A DNA stretch of 64,000 bases from Candidula unifasciata (taxonomy: Eukaryota > Mollusca > Gastropoda > Stylommatophora > Geomitridae): assembly GCA_905116865.2 (NCBI GenBank), contig CAJHNH020008101.1:192739-256738 (forward strand). Direction: 5' to 3'. Within the stretch, counting starts at the first letter, position 1. Each line of letters begins with the position of its first letter. Positions 4,040-51,497 of this stretch are shown here, one piece after another. The notes below the pieces were generated by a model. That model saw nothing but the letters and a program-made list of their open reading frames with translations. It searched no databases and was not told the DNA's origin. The translations under genes were made by a program, and so were the position numbers.

Positions 4040-4684
4040 ACAATACATTGCACAGTTAGATCATGGGGTAAAATTAACGTTGGTCTCCCAATTTACACAG
4101 CACTACACACTAGCTCATTTATGATTTGTCGACCTTGAGCCACACATCCTTGAGACAATGGTACGGGGGTTTTCTGCAATGCCGTTGTTATCGCGTGCTG
4201 TATATTTAAGCACGCCAGCACTTTTAGGTTTCCAAAGACATGGACAAACTGGGTCTAACACACAACTCCCCTAGAGGGAGCTGCAACCTACGTCACATGC
4301 ATTCTGTTTCTCGAAAGAAAAACGTAAATGCAAGGAAACCTAAAAAGCAAACAACAGAGCGGTACATTCTTAACCTCCAGGAAAGTAGACCAGCCCAACA
4401 AAGTTGTAAATGAAACGTGACCTACTTTCTCTGGGGAGACTTACGTAGAACTAACCGAAAATGGCACACTTTGGCTGCATCTTATCAGGAACCTTGCTAC
4501 ATAATTTATTCAACATACACTGAGTCTGCAGTCTTCTTCTCGTTGCGAATTTCTTACCACTGTCGGAAAGTAAAGAAACCCGTATAATGTATGGCATACG
4601 ACTGTGAATTGCTAACAGCTTATTAGTAGCAATTTATAAGTCAAGAAGGATCCACTTCACTGAACATGGTTTTATCCCCTATGG

Positions 4685-5177
4685 CTTGGTCTCTTTCCGC
4701 AGAACGGTTAGCCACCTGGAGAAAGCTTGGGCTGGGAAGCTCTATGGACGAACCTGTCCCAGTATGTCTTAGTGACAGGTAACTGGTGTAGTGTTCTGTA
4801 TCACAGATATCACTATTACAATATTATTCCTGTGATGCTTACATGTGGATATATATGTAATTATCAATGTAATTATAATCGCAAACTGGATTTATTACAT
4901 GTGTTGACATATCACGTGTTTTGTGTTGACAATTTTTTGAAGCGTCTGACGTTTTATTTCTGGTTTAGGTTATGTTTATTCAACTAATCAACATCATGGC
5001 ACAGGGGTCTATCCCATAAGTGCTCCGTTCTACTTCTAATTCAAGCTGTAGTCTAAAGATTCTCAGCACAGTGCACGAAGTTTCCTGAAGGATCCTGAAA
5101 TATTTTGGGTAGATTTTAAACTCCAAATTGTGACCAGGCAGCGCCGCTAGGCTACTATTTTCGATTTACAACTGCAA
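4685..5177. other. No gene seen
   Basis: Short open frames occur here but none has a recognisable product. The sequence is AT-rich and appears unique within the window. Confidence 0.5.
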
Positions 5178-5347
5178 AGGGATTTTTTTAACGTACGTAG
5201 CAATACACAAAGGCGTCCGATCTCACTATCCAGAGACCAGGGGAAATTACTAGAAGTTTGCGTGAAATAATCCTAGTCTTCACCGGGGCTTAAACCCGGG
5301 ACCTCCAGCACTCGGGGCGAACGCATGCCTCGAGACCACTCCGCCCC
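5178..5347 (-). mobile_element. SINE family B, tRNA-like head
   Basis: On the minus strand it starts GGCGGAGTGGTCTCGAGGCA, which is A-box-like, and has a B-box-like GGTCCCGGGTTTAAGCCCC about 40 bases later. A short body with GTCTCTGGATAG follows. A related copy lies on the plus strand at 19925-20090. The promoter spacing fits a tRNA-derived SINE. A poly-C run follows immediately on the right. Confidence 0.65.
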
Positions 5348-6120
5348 CCCCCCCCCCAACCCCCACGTTTTATTTCTAATGTGTGCAAGATTGGACGAAT
5401 TCTCCAATTTATTTGTCATCATCATCATTGTCTTCCACTGTGTATGCCAAGTGTTGTGGGAAGGGATTAAGTGGTGTTCTATGGCATTACTGGAGCAGCA
5501 GTATCCTAGTGGTTAAACTTTTTCATGCCACCGGAAAGTAAACACAACAGGCTTTGACCATAACACGTACTGAGCTATAAAAATAAGATAACAAGATATA
5601 CAACCAAACGACAAGTCGAACCAGTCAGCATCACAATATTCCAAGCACATACGAAAAGTGAACGCTTTTATCAGCACATACATACACATTCAATACGACA
5701 AACACACACAAACATCACTTAACTGACGAATCACCTATAGAAATAGCGTTTCTGCCTGGACAATCCATCACTATATGTCTACACATACACATACATATAC
5801 ACACACACACTCAACACACACACACACACACACGCACACAAATTGTGAACACGGTCCTTCACTAATTTAATTGCTGACCAGCTTTCTATTATCAGTTCGG
5901 GTTAATGAAAATTTTATGTTATGTCTGCAATTCCCCCCCCCCCCCACCCCCCTCCCAACCCCACCCCCACACACACACAGTTACTCTCCTTTAAGATTTT
6001 TTGAGGTTTAGCTGCCTTGTTGGTAACTTATAATGCTGCATTCCAACATGCCCAAACCATGTGACCTTTCCTTTGTGCTTTTTGGCACAAGTTGTATGTC
6101 CCACAACACGTCTGGTAGTG
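5348..6120. other. Low-complexity intergenic sequence
   Basis: It contains C-rich runs at about 5341-5365 and 5934-5972 and interrupted CA/ACAT tracts at about 5780-5840. No supported gene or known element was seen. Confidence 0.5.
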
Positions 6121-6170
6121 CCGTGTATTGCTTCGTCTCTGGTGGTTACATTAGTGGCTTTTATAATATA
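6121..6170 (+). repeat. Solitary unit of the 51-bp repeat
   Basis: Fifty bases match the unit of the array at 8384-9302 with only about two differences (GTGTATTG here, GTTTATCG in the array). The next bases start the composite repeat element that separates it from the main array. Confidence 0.9.
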
Positions 6171-8383
6171 CTAGCTGTACCCGGCCACGCGTTGCTGTGG
6201 CATAGTTTGGCTAAATGGAAATAAAAGAAAATAGAAATCGCACTTGTCTAATACAATCATTGTCTGCTCAGATAAGAAATAGTCTTTGATCTCCACCACA
6301 CCCCCCCCCCTCCACAACTAAATCCACCTACTACCCTCTCCGTCATCAAAGGTTTTTGGAAAAGAAAGACAATGGAAATCGCACCTGTCTAATATAATTA
6401 ATGTCGCAATCATTCTCTGCACATTTATATAGAGATAGTCTGGTTCTCCAACTTTAGAACACGCACCATATAATTGTATCTTTATATTAGTGGTCGTCTA
6501 AATGGTGCTATTAGCACGGTAACAAAAGTGGTTATTTGGTTATCTCATGCTAAAGCTGTTTGTATTTTTATAGGAGACGGAAGTAAAGCTACAACTGTAC
6601 TTGTAAATAACAAAGTAAGTCGTAAAAAATAGAAAAGCGGAGGTAGCGTTGGTAAAATATAAACAAATTAGGTAATGAGAACTTGAAAATCAAGTGTAAA
6701 GCTCTTTAAGTTCTCTTAAATTTAAGTCATTACCCCCCTCCCCTCCCCTTTTCCACCGACTACTGCTCTCTCCCTCTTCGAAATATTTGAAAATCATTAC
6801 CTGGCGATATTTTGTTGTTGCTGTAACTGACATTGACATCCCTGTCCATCTGGACTAAAATGGGGAGCAGGAATTGTAATAGCTAGTGAATGGGGCTAGT
6901 GTAATATTTACCACATCATCCTTCAAGTACCAGTACTACTACTAAAATAATGTCACTGCTATCTGTGTTACCATCGGAGTAGACAGAGAGTCGTGAGCCA
7001 GAAGATTTGGTTCCGCATGGCTAGTACTGTCGCCACAGACTGGTCAGGTTAGGATGTATAATTTCGCTTCCCGACAGAAGAACACCATAACCTTAGCGGC
7101 GGTCTTCACATGAGAGCACTATGATGTAACAGCCCTGGTGTAACAACTATTACTGCTGCTGCTACTTTAAGTGGGTAAAGCAGTTACTGTTACTTAAAGC
7201 TCTCTCAGTAAATAGTTTGCCCCCCCCCCCCCCCCCCCCAAATTCACCGACAACTCTTTCTCTCATTGAAGTAGTTGGGAGGAAGAAAAAAAAAAAACAC
7301 TTGAAAAGCAAATGAACACAGGAAAAAAACACCATAATTAGGAAATGAACGCCATGGTAAACAGCAACGCTTAAAATTCCAACGCAGATGAAATAACTAA
7401 ATCTAAAAAAAAAATAAATGAAAATCTAAAAAATTTCAGCGTAACCATGCAATCGGAAAGTTTTAAAATGGAATCATAAGTATGCGAAATGGTCACATTT
7501 AATTATCAAACGGTTTACCCATTTACTTGTCTTTTTTTAATATTAAGGCAACATGGCTAGTGCTGTCACCACGACAGAGCAGATGAGGATATTATTTTAG
7601 TCCGGGGTTAAAAAAAAATATTAACTACTGTGGATTCGAACCCAGGTCTCCCGCACAGGAACCCAGTGTTCTAACCATTCGACCAAGCAGCCAATTAATC
7701 GGATAAACGAAAAGAGAACTTAACTATTATAGATATGTGTCCCTACTACTGAGTCCTGATTAAAACACAGTTCAAAACCGCAGGCAATTGTTTTCTCGTA
7801 GACAGATACTCCAGATATATTAATGAAACGGCACAACAATAGAAATCGCACGTGTCTAACACGGTTAATGAAGTTAATGTCGCAGTCAATGTCTGCGCCG
7901 ACGTCGAGATAGTCCTTGATTGCCCCCCCCCCTCCCCCCCCCCCCATCCCCCCATCGAAGGTTGTTTGAAAAAAAAACAGAAAATAGAAATCGTGTTTAA
8001 TATGGTTATTGTGGCAAATATAGAGATAGTCTTGTTTAATGTACCACGTCCTACTCTATGTATTAGAGAAGGCGTTGGCTGCACGTAACTCGCCGGCAAA
8101 TGGCGGAAGCCTTGCGTTCTGACTACGGCGGCGCATGCGCAATTGCTAACGTGGCTATAATTAGAAATCACTAAAGTTATAAATATTAGTTTCGAATATT
8201 ATGGCTTAATATGTGGTCACCTATCTCTAACAGCGACAGGTTGAATTTCAAACCACGATGGTTCAAAATCCGGTATCAAAACAAACATATCCTCAAAATT
8301 TCAGCTAAATCGGTTCAGTAGTTTCCAAGTCTATAGGGAGCAAACAAACACACAAACATTGATTTATATATATATATAGATCT
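6171..8383. mobile_element. Composite repeat element inserted beside or within the 51-bp array
   Basis: The left edge CTAGCTGTACCCGGCCACGC and the right edge with CAGCTAAATCGGTTCAGTAG, then CAAACAAACACACAAACA and a TA-rich tail, resemble paired ends of a dispersed retroelement class. That assignment is from memory and uncertain. Inside, a module with AGAAATCGCAC and GTCTAAYACR occurs at about 6235, 6375 and 7842, each near poly-C runs. A family C SINE sits at 7547-7692 and a partial one at about 6990-7110. No long reading frame is conserved. It may be one element carrying internal repeats, or several nested ones. Confidence 0.45.
7547..7692 (-). mobile_element. SINE family C, tRNA-like head
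   Basis: The minus strand begins GGCTGCTTGGTCGAATGGTT and has CCTGGGTTCGAATCC about 35 bases later. These are good matches to pol III A and B boxes. A body with ATGGCTAGTGCTGTCACCAC lies at its far end. Related copies are at 10911-11050 and 29905-30060, with a partial one near 6990-7110. The tRNA-like part could be mistaken for a tRNA gene, but it cannot fold through a full acceptor stem and is fused to a body. Confidence 0.65.
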
Positions 8384-9302
8384 GTTTATCGCTTCGTCTC
8401 TGGTGGTTACATTAGTGGATTTCATAATATATCCGTTTATCGCTTCGTCTCTGGTGGTTACATTAGTGGCTTTTATAAAATATCCGTTTATCGCTTCGTC
8501 TCTGGTGGTTACATTAGTGGCTTTTATAATATGTCCGTTTATCGCTTCGTCTCTGGTGGTTACATTAGTGGCTTTTATAAAATATCAGTTTATCGCTTCG
8601 TCTCTGGTGGTTACATTAGTGGCTTTTATAATATGTCCGTTTATCGCTTCGTCTCTGGTGGTTACATTAGTTGCTTTTATAATATATCCGTTTATCGCTT
8701 CGTCTCTGGTGGTTACATTAGTTGCTTTTATAATATATCCGTTTATCGCTTCGTCTCTGGTGGTTACATTAGTGGCTTTTATAATATATCCGTTTATTGC
8801 TTCGTCTCTGGTGGTTACATTAGTGGCTTTAATAATATATCTATTTATCGCTTCGTCTCTGGTGGTTACATAAGTGGCTTTTATAATATATCCGTTTATC
8901 GCTTCGTCTCTGGTGGTTACATTAGTGGCTTTTATAAAATATCCGTTTATCGCTTCGTCTCTGGTGGTTACATTAGTGGCTTTTATAATATGTCCGTTTA
9001 TCGCTTCGTCTCTGGTGGTTACATTAGTTGCTTTTATAATATATCCGTTTATCGCTTCGTCTCTGGTGGTTACATTAGTTGCTTTTATAATATATCCGTT
9101 TATCGCTTCGTCTCTGGTGGTTACATTAGTTGCTTTTATAATATATCCGTTTATCGCTTCGTCTCTGGTGGTTACATTAGTTGCTTTTATAATATATCCG
9201 TTTATCGCTTGGTCTCTGGTGGTTACATTAGTGGCTTTTATAATATATCCGTTTATCGCTTCGTCTCTGGTGGTTACATTTGTGGCATTTACAATATATC
9301 TC
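8384..9302 (+). repeat. 51-bp minisatellite, 18 units
   Basis: The unit includes CGCTTCGTCTCTGGTGGTTA and CATTAGTGGCTTTTATAATA. Spacing is exactly 51 bases between the units checked. Variation between units is limited to a few positions (GTGG/GTTG, ATAT/AAAT). Because 51 is 17 codons, all plus frames stay open for long distances and give repeated 17-residue peptides such as YPFIASSLVVTLVAFII. This is probably a consequence of the period rather than evidence of a gene. Confidence 0.95.
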
Positions 9303-10910: not shown

Positions 10911-11043
10911 AGGGCCGCATGGCTGCAGCCGCTACAAACTGTGTAGGTTAGGATTTTATGTTTGCCTCTAACATAAACCTATCGCCTTACACAGGATTGG
11001 AGCCTGGGTCTCCCGACTAAAAGTCCAACATTTTTACCCGCTG

Positions 11044-11050
<7 letters not shown>
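10911..11050 (-). mobile_element. SINE family C, diverged copy
   Basis: It shares the CGCATGGCTGCAGCCGCTAC-type body end and the GAGCCTGGGTCTCCCG B-box complement with the copy at 7547-7692. Its head lies at the left edge of duplication block A, whose first copy starts at 11044. Confidence 0.5.
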
Positions 11051-14861
<3,811 letters not shown>

Positions 14862-44032: not shown

Positions 44033-44719
44033 ATTGTCAGTAGTGGGGTAGCGTAATACAGGTATTATTTGGCCTAAGCCGCCTTCTTTATTCTTTGTAA
44101 AAGATGGCGGCCAAATCAGCTTGGTCTGTTCTGGCGGCTTTATATATCCTTAGTAAATATCGATCGGGCGGCTAATGACGGCACGCGTGCTTGGTTTAGG
44201 GAAAGGTATAGGAAATTGATACTTTGTAGATGCATTATTATCTTCATAACTGCAGGTGACAGGTGGCGTTATATAAATGGTGAGGTCAGGAACACTATTT
44301 AGGTGAGCAGCGGGGGGCAGGTAGGGCAGGGGACCCGGGGCGACAGGGCGACTAATAGAGTTGGTGCGGGTTTATGTGGGTGTCTGCATATGTGATTGTA
44401 TGAGGGAAGCCGTTTGAGACTTGCGATAAAGAAACCTAGGAAGGCGACGTGGTGACCGGGGATATATTAGAAAGGGCGGTTCGAGAGCCATCATCATCAT
44501 CTGTATCATGGGATCGAAGGTCGATCGCTCAGGAATGGTTTGAACTGTAGTAAAAAGGACGACAGAATGCTGGGTGTCTGGTAATACTGTTGAGGGTCGA
44601 AGAGAAGAGGCTAGAAAGGGCGACTCGAGCGCCATCATCATCATCTGTGTCATGGTATTGAAGGGATGGTTTGAGCTGTAGTAAAAAGGACAGAAGGGTA
44701 GCTGTCTTGTCATAGTGTC

Positions 44720-45140
44720 GAGGGCAGAAGAGAAGGGGCTTACCTGACATCGGTGAGCAGCGGGGCGTGCGGGGCAAGGGACCCGAGGCGGGTGTCTGGT
44801 AATACTGTTGAGGGTCGAAGAGAAGGGGCATAATTGGCAGACTATCTGACTTTGTAAATAAGTGGGCGAAGGTTCTGCATTCGTTGTCGGTATGTTGGGG
44901 TGTGGGTATTTTTAGGCGGACTGGTTTAAGGAAGACAAATATTTCTTTAGTGCAGGGCCAGATGTTGGTTAAAGTGGCGGATGACCGGGGATATATTAGA
45001 AAGGGCGACTCGAGCGCCATCATCATCATCTGTGTCATGGTATTGAAGGGATGGTTTGAGCTGTAGTAAAAAGGACAGAAGGGTAGCTGTCTTGTCATAG
45101 TGTCGAGGGCAGAAGAGAAGAGGCTTACCTGACATCGGTG
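44720..45140 (+). repeat. Left-arm-only expansion of about 410 bases
   Basis: The segment AGTAAAAAGGACAGAAGGGTAG to GACATCGGTGAGCAGCGGGG occurs twice in the left arm (about 44670-44765 and 45065-45150) but once in the right arm (about 50765-50860). Between the two left copies is sequence with no partner in the right arm (about 44830-44980). Either the left arm gained a duplication plus insert, or the right arm lost it. Confidence 0.75.
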
Positions 45141-46239
45141 AGCAGCGGGGCGGGCGGGGCAAGGGACACGGGGCGACAGGGCGACTAAAACGGTTGGTGT
45201 TGGTTTATGGGTTCTGTAATAGACGAAAAATTATAAGTGGGTTGTTAGCGGGAGATATATATGTTATAAAACGAAACAAGTTACGGGATATGAAAATAGA
45301 CATAGGCAGCAGTGACAGCCGGCAGAGGGGGAGGGGGCGTTTTAGGGTTTAGGTAAAGAAACCTAGAAAGGTGGTTTGATGACCGGGGATATATACTAAA
45401 GGGCGACTTGAGTGCCATCATCATCATCATCATCTGTGTCATGGGAGCGAAGGTCGACTGCTCAGGGATGGTTTGAGCTATAGTAAAAAGGAGAACGTAC
45501 AATAGAAGGGTGGGCGGCTTGTCATAGTGTTAGATGTTGATAGTTTAAGTTTTAGTAAAAAAAAGGAAAACTTTAACAAAGAGGCGACCGTTGTGACATA
45601 TTATTGGATATTGACCGATCAAGGAGGGTATGAGTTAAAATAAAAACAATATGGTAATTTATAGCAAAACGGCGACTCTTGTGACATATTGAGGAGGCCG
45701 ACCGCTTATGAAGGGTTTGAGTTGAAGTAAAAAGGGGACTTTATGGCAAAACGGCGACTTTATGGCAAAACGGCGACTTTTGTGTCATAGCAGCGAATGC
45801 CAACCGATCATTGAGGTTTTGATTTTAGGTAAAGATGGGAATTTATGGCAAAATGGCAACTTTTATGTCAACAATAATAAGGAATGCCGGCCGCGCAGAA
45901 ATAGTTTTAAGCTGTAGTAAAAAGGAAAACATACGACATTTGTCGTGTGTCTTATCATAGTGTTAGATATTGATAGGTTAGGGAGGGTTTAGTTGCAGTA
46001 AAAACGAAAGCGTTAACAGAAGGGCGACTTTTGTAACACATTATGGAAGGCCGGCCACTCATCCGTAGTTTAAATTGTAGTGGGAAAAATAGCAAAAGGA
46101 CGACAGGTGTGGCAAAGTGTCGGGTTCTGGCCGTACATATATGGTTGAGCTGTAGTTTTAAAAAAAAGGAGAACTGTTGTGTCATATTGTTAGATATCAC
46201 CGCTCATTAAGGGTTCACGTTGTAGGTCAGAGGCGGCGC

Positions 46240-46860
46240 TACCAGGCGACGAAGGTAGGCTGGGGCAATTTTAGGTGCCAAAAGGGCGCTATGTCTTTCT
46301 CGACAGACAGCGTAAACCACACACGAGACGTTACATGTCTTTCACTGGTCTTTACAAGGCAATAACTGAAGACGCCAGATAACCCGATCACTATCCTTGG
46401 GGCAAAGGGAAGCTGGGGCAATTTTGGGTACCAAAAAGGCGCTATATCTTTCTCGACGGACAACGTAAAGGACACACGAGACATCGCATGTCTTTCACGG
46501 GTCTTCACAAGGCGATAACAGAAGACGCCGGGTAACCCGATCACTATCCTTGGCGTACAAAAGTCACCCGATGTTTTTCTTCATAGGACACCGTAAGCCA
46601 CGGAAGAGAAAGAGCATATCTTTCACTGGTCTTGACAAGTCGTCACCTAAGGTTCCTATTAAGTAGCTAACTGTGCTTCTGACACAGCAAATCACTCGAT
46701 GGTTTTCTCTACGGGACACCACAAAGCACGCAAGAGACAGAGCATGTCTTTCACTGGTATTGTCAAGTCAGTTGCCGACGGTTCTTAGTAAGTAGTGCAC
46801 TGCCCCTGGGACCCAGCAACTACCCGATATTTGTCTTGACGAGACATCTTAGGTCACTTA
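46240..46860 (+). repeat. About 155-bp tandem units inside the left arm
   Basis: CCGATCACTATCCTTGG recurs at 46383 and 46538 (155 bases apart). Each unit includes a TCTTTCTCGACGGACA or TTTTCTTCATAGGACACCGT stretch and ATGTCTTTCACTGGTCTT. Four progressively diverged units are present. The mirror set is at about 49080-49700 in the right arm. Confidence 0.75.
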
Positions 46861-46864
46861 AGTC

Positions 46865-47000
46865 TTCCTCGTTGCTTCCGGCGTTGTCAGCGTCCTCGTT
46901 GTCGTCTTCCTTGTTGACTTCGGCGGGTCGTCGTCTTCGGCGTCATCGTCGCCTTTAATGTCGTCTTCGTCGTCGACTGCATAACCCAAGGTTTTTTACT
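46865..47000 (+). repeat. TCGTCG-rich segment inside the left arm
   Basis: Interrupted runs of TCGTCTTCG / TCGTCGTC over about 130 bases, unusual for the otherwise AT-rich window because of the dense CpG. The mirror copy is at about 48940-49075. Confidence 0.8.
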
Positions 47001-47980
47001 AACTGTCCCGGCTGCCTCGACACAATGCGACTTTAGGAAAACAGGAGACTCGTCGTCTTTGCAGTTGTCTTCCTCCTAATTTGCTCGTCTTCTGCGGTGT
47101 CGGCGCGTCGTAGGACAACGTTAGTCACTCGTTCACTAACCTCTCTTGGTAAGTCATTAATTAACATTGGTACTATGCGAGTCGCCAAGATGTCTTTTCT
47201 GTTGGGGAAACACTTGATGTCTTGGTCCTTTGATACATCTTGAATCACACAAGATATGACACACAGTTTTCACCAGCTGTCCCTGACGACTCGGACACAC
47301 AGTGGCTTTCAGAAAACACAAGGCAGCTTTTTAGAAGCCAGAAGGCTACTTCAAGAACCCAGAAGGCATCTTTTTACAAACCAGAATGTGACTTTAGAAA
47401 CCCAGAGGGATACTTTTTAGAAACCCGATGGTGACGTGTAGAAAATAAGAGACAATGGTTAGAAGTAGTGTCTTTTCCTTCTACTATATTTGTACAAAAC
47501 GCAGATAACCAACTAGTCGCCCTTGAAGCTAGATGTCCAAGCCTATTATCTGGATCGTCTACCAGGTTGTGCTACAGGAAAGGTTGTCTTACTGTAAACA
47601 TACAAAGCTTTTCGAGGGTTCTTCAAGAAGGCTGGCGCTCCGGCTAATAAACAAAGCATCCCACTGACGAACTGGCCATCGAAGTTGTTTCCTATAGTCG
47701 CCTCCAGGGTGGTACCATACATAACTATGCGAATTTTCATAAAGTGAAAGGGACGATTTAGAAAAATAGAGGGAGCGACTATCTTTATCCTCCGAGCGTC
47801 TCCAAGAGGCGCCTTGAGTTCTTTACACATACAAGTTTTATCAACTAGCTGTCACAGAAGCTATCTTACAAACTATTTGTCCCTTCTGAAGGCTGGCTCG
47901 TCAACGGTTGTCAACGGGCTGTCCTACCTACTAGCCCTCTATTTCGAGACCGACGCAGCAACCGTTGGTTGGGGCACAGC

Positions 47981-50900
47981 CCCTGCATCCGTCTCGAAAT
48001 AGAGGGCTAGTAGGTAGGACAGCCCGTTGACAACCGTTGACGAGCCAGCCTTCAGAAGGGACAAATAGTTAGTAAGATAGCTTCTGTGACAGCTAGTTGA
48101 TAAAACTTGTATGTGTAAAGAACTCAAGGCGCCTCTTGGAGACGCTCGGAGGATAAAGATAGTCGCTCCCTCTATTTTTCTAAATCGTCCCTTTCACTTT
48201 ATGAAAATTCGCATAGTTATGTATGGTACCACCCTGGAGGCGACTATAGGAAACAACTTCGATGGCCAGTTCGTCAGTGGGATGCTTTGTTTATTAGCCG
48301 GGGCGCCAGCCTTCTTGAAGAACCCTCGAAAAGCTTTGTATGTTTACAGTAAGACAACCTTTCCTGTAGCACAACCTGGTAGACGATCCAGATAATAGGC
48401 TTGGACATCTAGCTTCAAGGGCGACTAGTTGGTTATCTGCGTTTTGTACAAATATAGTAGAAGGAAAAGACACTACTTCTAACCGTTGTCTCTTATTTTC
48501 TACACGTCACCATCGGGTTTCTAAAAAGTATCCCTCTGGGTTTCTAAAGTCACATTCTGGTTTGTAAAAAGATGCCTTCTGGGTTCTTGAAGTAGCCTTC
48601 TGGCTTCTAAAAAGCTGCCTTGTGTTTTCTGAAAGCCACTGTGTGTCCGAGTCGTCAGGGACAGCTGGTGAAAACTGTGTGTCATATCTTGTGTGATTCA
48701 AGATGTATCAAAGGACCAAGACATCAAGTGTTTCCCCAACAGAAAAGACATCTTGGCGACTCGCATAGTACCAATGTTAATTAATGACTTACCAAGAGAG
48801 GTTAGTGAACGAGTGACTAACGTTGTCCTACGACGCGCCGACACCGCAGAAGACGAGCAAATTAGGAGGAAGACAACTGCAAAGACGACGAGTCTCCTGT
48901 TTTCCTAAAGTCGCATTGTGTCGAGGCAGCCGGGACAGTTAGTAAAAAAACCTTGGGTTATGCAGTCGACGACGAAGACGACATTAAAGGCGACGATGAC
49001 GCCGAAGACGACGACCCGCCGAAGTCAACAAGGAAGACGACAACGAGGACGCTGACAACGCCGGAAGCAACGAGGAAGACTTAAGTGACCTAAGATGTCT
49101 CGTCAAGAAAAATATCGGGTAGTTGCTGGGTCCCAGGGGCAGTGCACTACTTACTAAGAACCGTCGGCAACTGACTTGACAATACCAGTGAAAGACATGC
49201 TCTGTCTCTTGCGTGCTTTGTGGTGTCCCGTAGAGAAAACCATCGAGTGATTTGCTGTGTCAGAAGCACAGTTAGCTACTTAATAGGAACCTTAGGTGAC
49301 GACTTGTCAAGACCAGTGAAAGATATGCTCTTTCTCTTCCGTGGCTTACGGTGTCCTATGAAGAAAAACATCGGGTGACTTTTGTGCGCCAAGGATAGTG
49401 ATCGGGTTACCCGGCGTCTTCTGTTATCGCCTTGTGAAGACCCGTGAAAGACATGCGATGTCTCGTGTGTCCTTTACGTTGTCCGTCGAGAAAGATATAG
49501 CGCCTTTTTGGTACCCAAAATTGCCCCAGCTTCCCTTTGCCCCAAGGATAGTGATCGGGTTATCTGGCGTCTTCAGTTATTGCCTTGTAAAGACCAGTGA
49601 AAGACATGTAACGTCTCGTGTGTGGCTTACGCTGTCTGTCGAGAAAGACATAGCGCCCTTTTGGCACCTAAAATTGCCCCAGCCTACCTTCGTCGCCTGG
49701 TAGCGCCGCCTCTGACCTACAACGTGAACCCTTTATGAGCGGTGATATCTAACAATATGACACAACAGTTCTCCTTTTTTTTAAAACTACAGCTCAACCA
49801 TATGTGTACGGCCAGAACCCGACACTTTGCCACACCTGTCGTCCTTTTGCTATTTTTCCCACTACAATTTAAACTACGGATGAGTGGCCGGCCTTCCATA
49901 ATGTGTTACAAAAGTCGCCCTTCTGTTAACGCTTTCGTTTTTACTGCAACTAAACCCTCCCTAACCTATCAATATCTAACACTATGATAAGACACACGAC
50001 AAATGTCGTATGTTTTCCTTTTTACTACAGCTTAAAACTATTTCTGCGCGGCCGGCATTCCTTATTATTGTTGACATAAAAGTTGCCATTTTGCCATAAA
50101 TTCCCATCTTTACCTAAAATCAAAACCTCAATGATCGGTTGGCATTCGCTGCTATGACACAAAAGTCGCCGTTTTGCCATAAAGTCCCCTTTTTACTTCA
50201 ACTCAAACCCTTCATAAGCGGTCGGCCTCCTCAATATGTCACAAGAGTCGCCGTTTTGCTATAAATTACCATATTGTTTTTATTTTAACTCATACCCTCC
50301 TTGAGCGGTCAATATCCAATAATATGTCACAACGGTCGCCTCTTTGTTAAAGTTTTCCTTTTTTTTTATTAAACTTAAACTATCAACATCTAACACCATG
50401 ACAAGCCGCCCACCCTTCTATTGTACGTTCTCCTTTTTACTATAGCTCAAACCATCCCTGAGCAGTCGACCTTCGCTCCCATGACACAGATGATGATGAT
50501 GATGATGGCACTCAAGTCGCCCTTTAGTATATATCCCCGGTCATCAAACCACCTTTCTAGGTTTCTTTACCTAAACCCTAAAACGCCCCCTCCCCCTCTG
50601 CCGGCTGTCACTGCTGCCTATGTCTATTTTCATATCCCGTAACTTGTTTCGTTTTATAACATATATATCTCCCGCTAACAACCCACTTATAATTTTTCGT
50701 CTATTACAGAACCCATAAACCAACACCAACCGTTTTAGTCGCCCTGTCGCCCCGTGTCCCTTGCCCCGCTGCTCACCGATGTCAGGTAAGCCTCTTCTCT
50801 TCTGCCCTCGACACTATGACAAGACAGCTACCCTTCTGTCCTTTTTACTACAGCTCAAACCATCCCTTCAATACCATGACACAGATGATGATGATGGCGC

Positions 50901-51491
50901 TCGAGTCGCCCTTTCTAGCCTCTTCTCTTCGACCCTCAACAGTATTACCAGACACCCAGCATTCTGTCGTCCTTTTTACTACAGTTCAAACCATTCCTGA
51001 GCGATCGACCTTCGATCCCATGATACAGATGATGATGATGGCTCTCGAACCGCCCTTTCTAATATATCCCCGGTCACCACGTCGCCTTCCTAGGTTTTCT
51101 TTATCGCAAGTCTCAAACGGCTTCCCTCATACAATCACATATGCAGACACCCACATAAACCCGCACCAACTCTATTAGTCGCCCTGTCGCCCCGGGTCCC
51201 CTGCCCTACCTGCCCCCCGCTGCTCACCTAAATAGTGTTCCTGACCTCACCATTTATATAACGCCACCTGTCACCTGCAGTTATGAAGATAATAATGCAT
51301 CTACAAAGTATCGATTTCCTATACCTTTCCCTAAACCAAGCACGCGTGCCGTCATTAGCCGCCCGATCGATATTTACTAAGGATATATAAAGCCGCCAGA
51401 ACAGACCAAGCTGATTTGGCCGCCATCTTTTACAAAGAATAAAGAAGGCGGCTTAGGCCAAATAATACCTGTATTACGCTACCCCACTACT
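47981..51491 (-). repeat. Right arm of the giant palindrome
   Basis: Reverse complement of the left arm with few substitutions. In matched frames, for example, VWFTLSVEKD reads VWLTLSVEKD and HICTARTRHF reads HMCTARTRHF. A one-base indel lies near 51090. The innermost part (47991-48400) matches without visible change. The low divergence suggests a young element or ongoing conversion between arms. Confidence 0.9.
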
Positions 51492-51497
51492 ATTGTC

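Follow-up and report, generated by a model that had tools for sequence, protein, structure and literature searches.

What kind of element is almost wholly one palindrome, carries no recognisable gene, and how could it be copied? The question is raised by a 64,000-nucleotide stretch of contig CAJHNH020008101.1 of the gastropod Candidula unifasciata (assembly GCA_905116865.2, positions 192,739 to 256,738), which we call the window and in which positions 44039-51491 form a gene-less palindromic element of 7453 bp. We believe that this is probably a gene-less satellite of a Maverick/Polinton family, copied by way of a self-folded strand in protein-primed replication. Our evidence comes from common ends, target-site duplications (TSDs), gene content, the origin of the outer arm and the pattern of identity between arms. 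A preliminary description, made from the letters of the window, had suggested a hairpin-only derivative of a Maverick/Polinton, and this is supported by the ends, the TSD and the Maverick genes found between the same ends elsewhere in the genome. Two results are new: polymerase genes lie on other elements than the capsid and integrase genes, and the palindromes recur.

The element has the ends AGTAGTGGGG (left) and CCCCACTACT (right) and is bordered on either side by ATTGTC, an exact 6-bp duplication. Of 3507 aligned sites, 3490 are the same in both arms (99.52%), which leaves 17 substitutions; the near-total inverted repeat, its perfect duplication and the folding of the arms over about 3.5 kb across a short spacer had all been described correctly (Table 1). 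The left arm alone holds a 394-bp and a 19-bp stretch. Most of the 394-bp stretch that the right arm lacks is bounded by 155-bp direct repeats. Because the 394 bp sit at these repeats and hold sequence unseen in the right arm, a deletion in the right arm would be the simpler reading. About 1 kb of each flank is without inverted similarity, save one 20-mer at E 0.13, and the 20-bp terminus (at most 3 mismatches) occurs within the window only at the two ends of the element (shuffle mean 0.01).

No protein had been seen in the arms, and we recognised no gene there. A Pfam scan of 10 of the 24 listed frames of at least 75 amino acids in the element gave none at cut-off (best E 0.055); several of the 14 frames left unscanned are mirror images of scanned ones. 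Homologue searches with two of the frames were without a match at E ≤1, and tblastn with seven proteins of sister elements and four PolB queries found nothing in the element at E 1e-4. On these three lines of evidence we rejected genes in the arms. Searches of a phage collection, viral contigs and Rfam gave no match that we accepted; a viral-contig match (L001) to the first 16 bp was taken as chance, as the frames of that contig look phage-like. The ends also hold AAGATGGCGGC, which we take to be a YY1-type motif. Its pattern, AANATGGCGGC, is present in both ends (0.07 expected in the window), and is perhaps a promoter.

We searched the genome (1.34 Gb in 7176 contigs) for relatives. Here C numbers are genome contigs, the window being C6988:192739-256738, L numbers are fetched loci, and in the genome match lists only the top candidates were scored. 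With the first 200 bp of the arm there were 48 matches (best 40 of 533 candidates scored), and the exact 19-mer AGTAGTGGGGTAGCGTAAT occurs 55 times in 35 contigs, while its reversed control occurs 0 times. Twenty loci were fetched, 15 with both ends and four (L023, L025, L026, L029) with one; L027, in which the second end is unclear, was excluded from the TSD count. The 15 loci, nine further pairs of ends and the window element make a sample of 25 elements, and 21 of them have a perfect 6-bp TSD (22 of 26 table rows, C3510 giving two rows for its two alternative right ends, which have one TSD in common). There are 20 different hexamers among these 21, C273 and C779 having TACATT in common. AGTAGT/ACTACT ends are present in all 26 rows, for elements that were partly chosen by this terminus. 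Further copies that agree in their ends and have 6-bp duplications, which the preliminary description had proposed to look for, thus exist in this genome. The commonest end motif of vertebrate Mavericks is 5'-(AGT)2//(ACT)2-3', with 6-bp TSDs (excerpt of PMC8097293). The two possible right ends of the C3510 element (L016) lie at 8485 and 8863, 378 bp apart, each followed by the flank CACCTCTTCTTC, and the right end of this locus is a duplicated terminus.

Ten of the fetched loci (L011-L017 and L020-L022) are elements of 8.2-8.3 kb with terminal repeats of 845-1041 bp (L016 measures 8.66 kb with the outer right end). The outer 573 bp of the window arm are about 93-95% identical to these terminal repeats over most of their length in L011-L015, and are more diverged or matched in pieces only in L016, L017 and L020-L022. 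Frames of L021 above Pfam cut-offs are rve (1.5e-12) with Chromo (2e-9), Pox_A32 (6.9e-6) and Peptidase_C5 (3.7e-5), and below the cut-offs are Adeno_IVa2 and PC4 (2.9e-4). A 465-amino-acid frame is the probable major capsid protein, by its position and by a weak match (5e-5) to its putative counterpart in another Maverick of the same genome. By position only, a 274-amino-acid frame is a candidate minor capsid protein. Seven sister genes, whole or partial, were matched in 10 of the 10 loci, so that integrase and capsid genes do occur between the termini where the preliminary description had proposed to look for them. Pieces of PolB had no match in these ten loci at E 1e-4. In the genome there are at least 117 matches to the integrase (best 113 of 1070 candidates scored) and at least 108 to the capsid-like frame (best 97 of 336). 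L025 (C4145) and L027 (C649), which have the same terminus at one clear end, carry distant relatives of the genes at 34-54% identity (exceptions are PC4, 78% in L025, and the ATPase, 99% in L027), so more than one gene lineage has these ends. Judging from these identities, termini and genes have been exchanged between Maverick lineages.

The sister elements also bear on whether the palindrome belongs to some other superfamily. The Dada and IS3EU superfamilies make 6-bp TSDs as well, and long terminal repeats with modules would suit another transposon of that kind or a P-type foldback element. The co-terminal elements, however, have packaging genes of viral type and an integrase that combines rve with a chromodomain. 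On the co-terminal integrase we rejected both assignments, which we consider very improbable.

The palindrome is not confined to the window. Matches to the loop-side 496 bp of the arm number 63, spread over 40 contigs (best 40 of 90 candidates scored). Arms lie face to face in 18 of these 40 contigs, with both sides longer than 450 bp in 10 and a gap of 23-24 nt in 10, and five palindromes (the window, C924, C1079, C1675 and C2877) have both ends and a perfect TSD. Near-perfect palindromes can arise artificially, as fold-back chimeras of the library or the assembly. The unrelated flanks, the exact TSD, the 17 substitutions between the arms and their two larger differences in length, together with the many copies just counted, led us to reject an artefact, to which we give almost no credence.

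The centre of the palindrome, CAACCGTTGGTTGGGGCACAGCCC, consists of the mini-hairpins CAACC-GTT-GGTTG and GGGC-ACA-GCCC with no unpaired base at their junction, and, on the stem GCAG/CTGC (47955-47958 / 47983-47986), is predicted to fold into a T-shaped tip. In post-hoc tests, its 9 pairs were reached by 28 of 200,000 shuffles and by 2 of 56,511 24-mers of the window outside the element. Seven distinct loci (the window, L010, L018, L019, L024, L034 and L036) agree in every letter of the 24-nt core; three of them were read a second time as L032, L033 and L037. The tip is partly deleted in L035, and the loop side of the arm was not found in L023, L026 and L028. Conservation of the tip is suggestive only, as at an arm divergence of 5-12% chance identity is non-negligible. 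The single-arm copies L010, L024 and L036 look like deletion derivatives because in each the tip persists beside a fragment of the second arm. L024 (C5983:334700-343420, element at 4495-8504) has 157-bp flanks that are mutually inverted, not a direct 6-bp duplication, as if from a hairpin-capped break.

Part of the arm can be traced to the sister elements. Going outward, each arm of L056 (C2185) passes into the sisters' protease tail and PC4 gene, and in L028 (C6094:566957-570198) the PC4 region of the sisters is joined to the arm. The junction is identical in the two loci and leads from about position 6619 of the class-B (capsid/integrase) element to arm position 2010. From these two loci, we read the palindrome as including the right end of the capsid/integrase element, duplicated in inverted orientation.

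How the arms stay alike is the point at which the manner of copying can be weighed. Arm identity within an element is 99.90% in L018 and 99.84% in L019, besides the 99.52% of the window. Between elements it is 87.6-92.3% for the window against the others and 98.2-98.4% for L018 against L019. Copying as double strands only would leave the arms at least as different as the copies are, while copying of a single strand in its self-folded state would be expected to homogenise them in every cycle. In addition, copies of the same Maverick gene lie at most 10 kb apart in opposite orientation in 11 contigs (C6006, C6243, C2043, C224, C3428, C4091, C4252, C520, C534, C2368 and C6094), in a count that covered all 117 integrase and 110 PolB rows listed and 54 capsid rows from contigs with more than one capsid match. 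Inverted capsid-like or PolB-like pairs at most about 3 kb apart were seen at C2368:423600-427738 and C6094:441762-443736, and in C4252, C3428, C4091 and C224 (at about 2.68 Mb). By their arrangement, we regard these inverted gene pairs as coding palindromes.

An ordinary non-autonomous derivative, foldback-like and moved by the Maverick integrase only, could also account for much of this, its arms being alike through conversion or recent birth. The integrase alone suffices for common ends and TSDs, simple deletions would explain the single-arm copies, and tandem modules and unequal arms are like those of foldback elements such as Galileo (excerpt of PMC3573991). We consider this explanation unlikely, while still deserving attention. 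The arms are closest to their own partner in 3 of the 3 palindromes compared, and L026 has 98.27% identity within the element over 3002 bp. Diverged terminal repeats persist in L015 (95% identical, TSD 5/6), which suggests that chromosomal conversion is not efficient. Inverted duplication of Maverick genes is commoner than duplication in the same orientation (11 against 4 contigs). Finally, the repeated short ends fit sliding-back initiation by a terminal protein, which needs short end repeats (excerpt of PMC4150772). The arm identity pattern, the inverted gene pairs and the short repeated ends are the reasons why we favour protein-primed fold-back copying.

A polymerase would have to come from elsewhere in the family, and a candidate is present on C273 (171237-183017), in an 11.8-kb element with the family ends and the TSD TACATT. 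Of this element we read 3.75 kb, short of the C-terminal part of the polymerase, and the two ends. The neighbouring pieces L075, L076 and L077, which were read apart, are open on one strand, with an open frame of 1402 amino acids. In the frame we see putative exonuclease motifs of the PolB type and a putative motif-A region, GYDANALYLW. Another Maverick in the genome has a PolB that Pfam calls at 2e-33, and L077 is similar to it at 1e-9. A polymerase between the same termini, also looked for in the preliminary description, is therefore represented by a PolB-like gene.

The gene has at least 110 matches in the genome (best 104 of 188 candidates scored), and among the matches listed 14, in 11 contigs, are at least 85% identical. 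In four of these 11 contigs (C273, C2043, C2724 and C3654) an exact 19-bp terminus is no more than 12 kb away, where about 0.01 is expected. The terminus lies at much the same distances, namely 3165 bp (C273) and 3050 bp (C2724) from the C-terminal side of the PolB-like gene, and 7419 bp (C273), 7202 bp (C2043, the nearer of two) and 5622 bp (C3654) from its N-terminal side; both ends were seen only in C273 among contigs of the PolB type. Among the matches listed, none of the 11 contigs has an integrase within 12 kb of the PolB, and of the 44 contigs with an integrase of at least 90% identity only C131 has a listed PolB match that close. C273, C2007, C6981, C4205, C3239, C2724, C4032, C500 and C3654 are without a capsid match among those listed, and the capsid match is 20 kb away in C2043 and about 0.47 Mb away in C224.

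We tentatively propose, at somewhat less than an even chance, a split, multipartite Maverick family. One element would carry the capsid, packaging and integrase set and another the PolB, with replication and integration ends in common, and palindromes would live off both parts as self-folded hairpins with a T-tip that works like a telomere of the parvovirus type. It is also quite possible, likewise at somewhat less than an even chance, that the split is non-functional and that PolB-less and PolB elements derive independently, as defective remains, from undivided Mavericks. Undivided relatives exist in C131, C897, C5219 and C2319, where matches to the capsid-like frame, integrase and PolB lie together within a few kb, and the C131 integrase is 97% identical to the PolB-less type. 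However, the PolB-less copies are uniform in length and gene set (10 of 10), unlike random deletions, and the PolB contigs combine a nearby terminus in 4 of 11 with a listed integrase in 0 of 11, the converse pairing being found in 1 of 44.

The PolB first found by Pfam, in C6094, was rejected as the family polymerase, since it belongs to a different Maverick lineage with its own integrase. C6094 and C2325 have no end in common with the family in the stretches read. This second lineage, at C6094:546000-561699 (L052, L040 and L053), has the PolB called by Pfam at 2e-33 with capsid-like and protease-like frames nearby, and its integrase is about 45% identical to that of the first lineage.

Under protein-primed fold-back copying, the events could be as follows. 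Primed by a terminal protein, the PolB of a co-terminal element would begin synthesis at the AGTAGT ends. The single strand displaced in this way would fold into a hairpin of 3.5-3.9 kb in which the paired ends are an origin again, and copying through the hairpin would regenerate a near-perfect palindrome. The integrase of an 8.2-8.3-kb element would insert this palindrome by a 6-bp staggered cut. The palindrome may have originated by an inverted duplication that took in the right end of an element of the integrase/capsid type, like snap-back defective genomes of protein-primed viruses, with its genes lost later. We infer protein priming from the repeated-triplet ends and the PolB-like gene in the family; fold-back copying and help in trans from the sister elements would follow the same reasoning.

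Several observations weigh against this explanation. Four of the 25 elements are without a perfect 6-bp TSD: C211, within a GATA repeat, C3091 and C6094, which match at 5/6, and C5983, with inverted flanks. None of the fetched coding elements matches the inner arm, which reaches from about 2010 to the centre. Pfam makes no call on the PolB-like gene of C273, solved structures gave weak zinc-finger matches or none, and no polymerase, and L076, the exonuclease region, matches the other PolB at only E 0.02, so that the PolB identity would depend on one partial similarity and on the putative motifs. Chromosomal gene conversion could also homogenise arms. Maverick gene copies at most 10 kb apart are in the same orientation in C1989, C534, C6872 and C4342, C534 being counted in both orientations.

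Among known systems, the closest in mechanism are snap-back genomes, which are palindromic, have a protein-primed origin at the end and derive from an inverted duplication of one genome end. Kikuchi in 1985 reportedly described hairpin plasmids derived from pGKL1 of Kluyveromyces lactis, and Daniell in 1976 is said to have described self-complementary incomplete adenovirus genomes. The likeness would lie in the inverted duplication of the outer arm in L056, with the junction in common with L028, but snap-back genomes are free replicons, whereas the snail palindrome is integrated and repeated in an animal genome. Inverted terminal repeats of parvoviruses such as adeno-associated virus resemble the window centre, which would fold into a T from one stem that bears two mini-hairpins; this T, however, is only 24 nt long and at the palindrome centre, and the comparison is one of working only. 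The resemblance to FB and Galileo is in anatomy only, namely the very long inverted repeats with tandem modules. FB makes TSDs of 9 bp and Galileo of 7 bp, and complete Galileo copies have a P-type transposase, whereas the snail family has 6-bp TSDs and a Maverick-type rve integrase. The Galileo copies known first were composed solely of long terminal repeats (excerpt of PMC3573991).

With Maverick/Polinton elements, the window element has in common the 6-bp TSD, the (AGT)2//(ACT)2 ends and terminal inverted repeats, and its co-terminal relatives carry an rve-chromo integrase, an A32-like ATPase, an adenain-type protease and a PolB-like gene. Unlike them, it is without recognised pPolB, rve integrase, ATPase, protease and capsid genes. 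Its arms of 3.5-3.9 kb compare with 46-1447 bp in intact vertebrate Mavericks (excerpt of PMC8097293) and its 7453 bp with 15-20 kb (excerpt of PMC4028283), and the polymerase and capsid/integrase genes of the family are on separate elements, not on one of 15-20 kb. Having no recognised gene and a length of 7.5 kb, it is filed here as a gene-less derivative, not an autonomous Maverick. The Tlr elements of Tetrahymena also have an RVE integrase and an ATPase without pPolB (excerpt of PMC4028283), but they encode a helicase, whereas the snail family has its PolB-like gene on a co-terminal element. We found no palindromic or split Maverick in the open-licence literature, subscription papers being outside the search.

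Mavericks have been described as single virus-like elements of 15-20 kb. With polymerase and capsid/integrase genes on separate co-terminal elements, the family would count as a multipartite DNA element within the genome of an animal, and its palindromes as integrated traces of defective genomes that resemble satellites. Protein priming of Mavericks in animals would become testable from the genome alone, because snap-back palindromes and per-cycle homogenisation of arms are its expected fingerprints. An integrase that spreads long palindromes would also bring instability to the genome.

Table 1. Features of the palindromic element, in window positions.
Feature	Position	Strand	Evidence
Target-site duplication ATTGTC, left copy	44033-44038	.	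Sequence, arm comparison, TSD table
Terminal motif (AGT)2, left; the commonest published vertebrate Maverick end motif	44039-44044	+	Excerpt of PMC8097293
Palindrome left arm, 3920 bp, without recognised gene	44039-47958	+	Arm comparison, Pfam
Arm part in common with terminal repeats of the gene-bearing 8.2-8.3-kb elements	44039-44611	+	Locus comparison
AAGATGGCGGC motif, mirrored at 51419-51429	44101-44111	+	Pattern search
Module of about 70 bp, 12 diverged copies	44498-46233	+	Repeat search
155-bp direct repeat, copy 1 (sequence identical to copy 2)	44612-44766	+	Repeat search
155-bp direct repeat, copy 2	44997-45151	+	Repeat search
Module of about 67 bp, 4 copies, within 153-bp and 128-bp tandem repeats	46292-46767	+	Repeat search
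Palindrome centre, 24 nt, between arms	47959-47982	.	Fold, locus comparison
Palindrome right arm, 3509 bp	47983-51491	-	99.52% identity with left arm, 3507 aligned sites
Terminal motif (AGT)2, right end (ACTACT on +)	51486-51491	-	Sequence; excerpt of PMC8097293
Target-site duplication ATTGTC, right copy	51492-51497	.	Sequence, arm comparison, TSD table

Elsewhere in the window, positions 1434-2039 hold an Ets-domain exon of an ERG-like gene, with a protein 98% identical to that of Bradybaena similaris, and a 43-bp tandem array follows it at 2060-2759. There are also two pure CTGT arrays, at 11887-12079 (48 units) and 14633-14860 (57 units), which adjoin a duplicated segment (11027-12079 / 13769-14825) whose copies are 99% identical.

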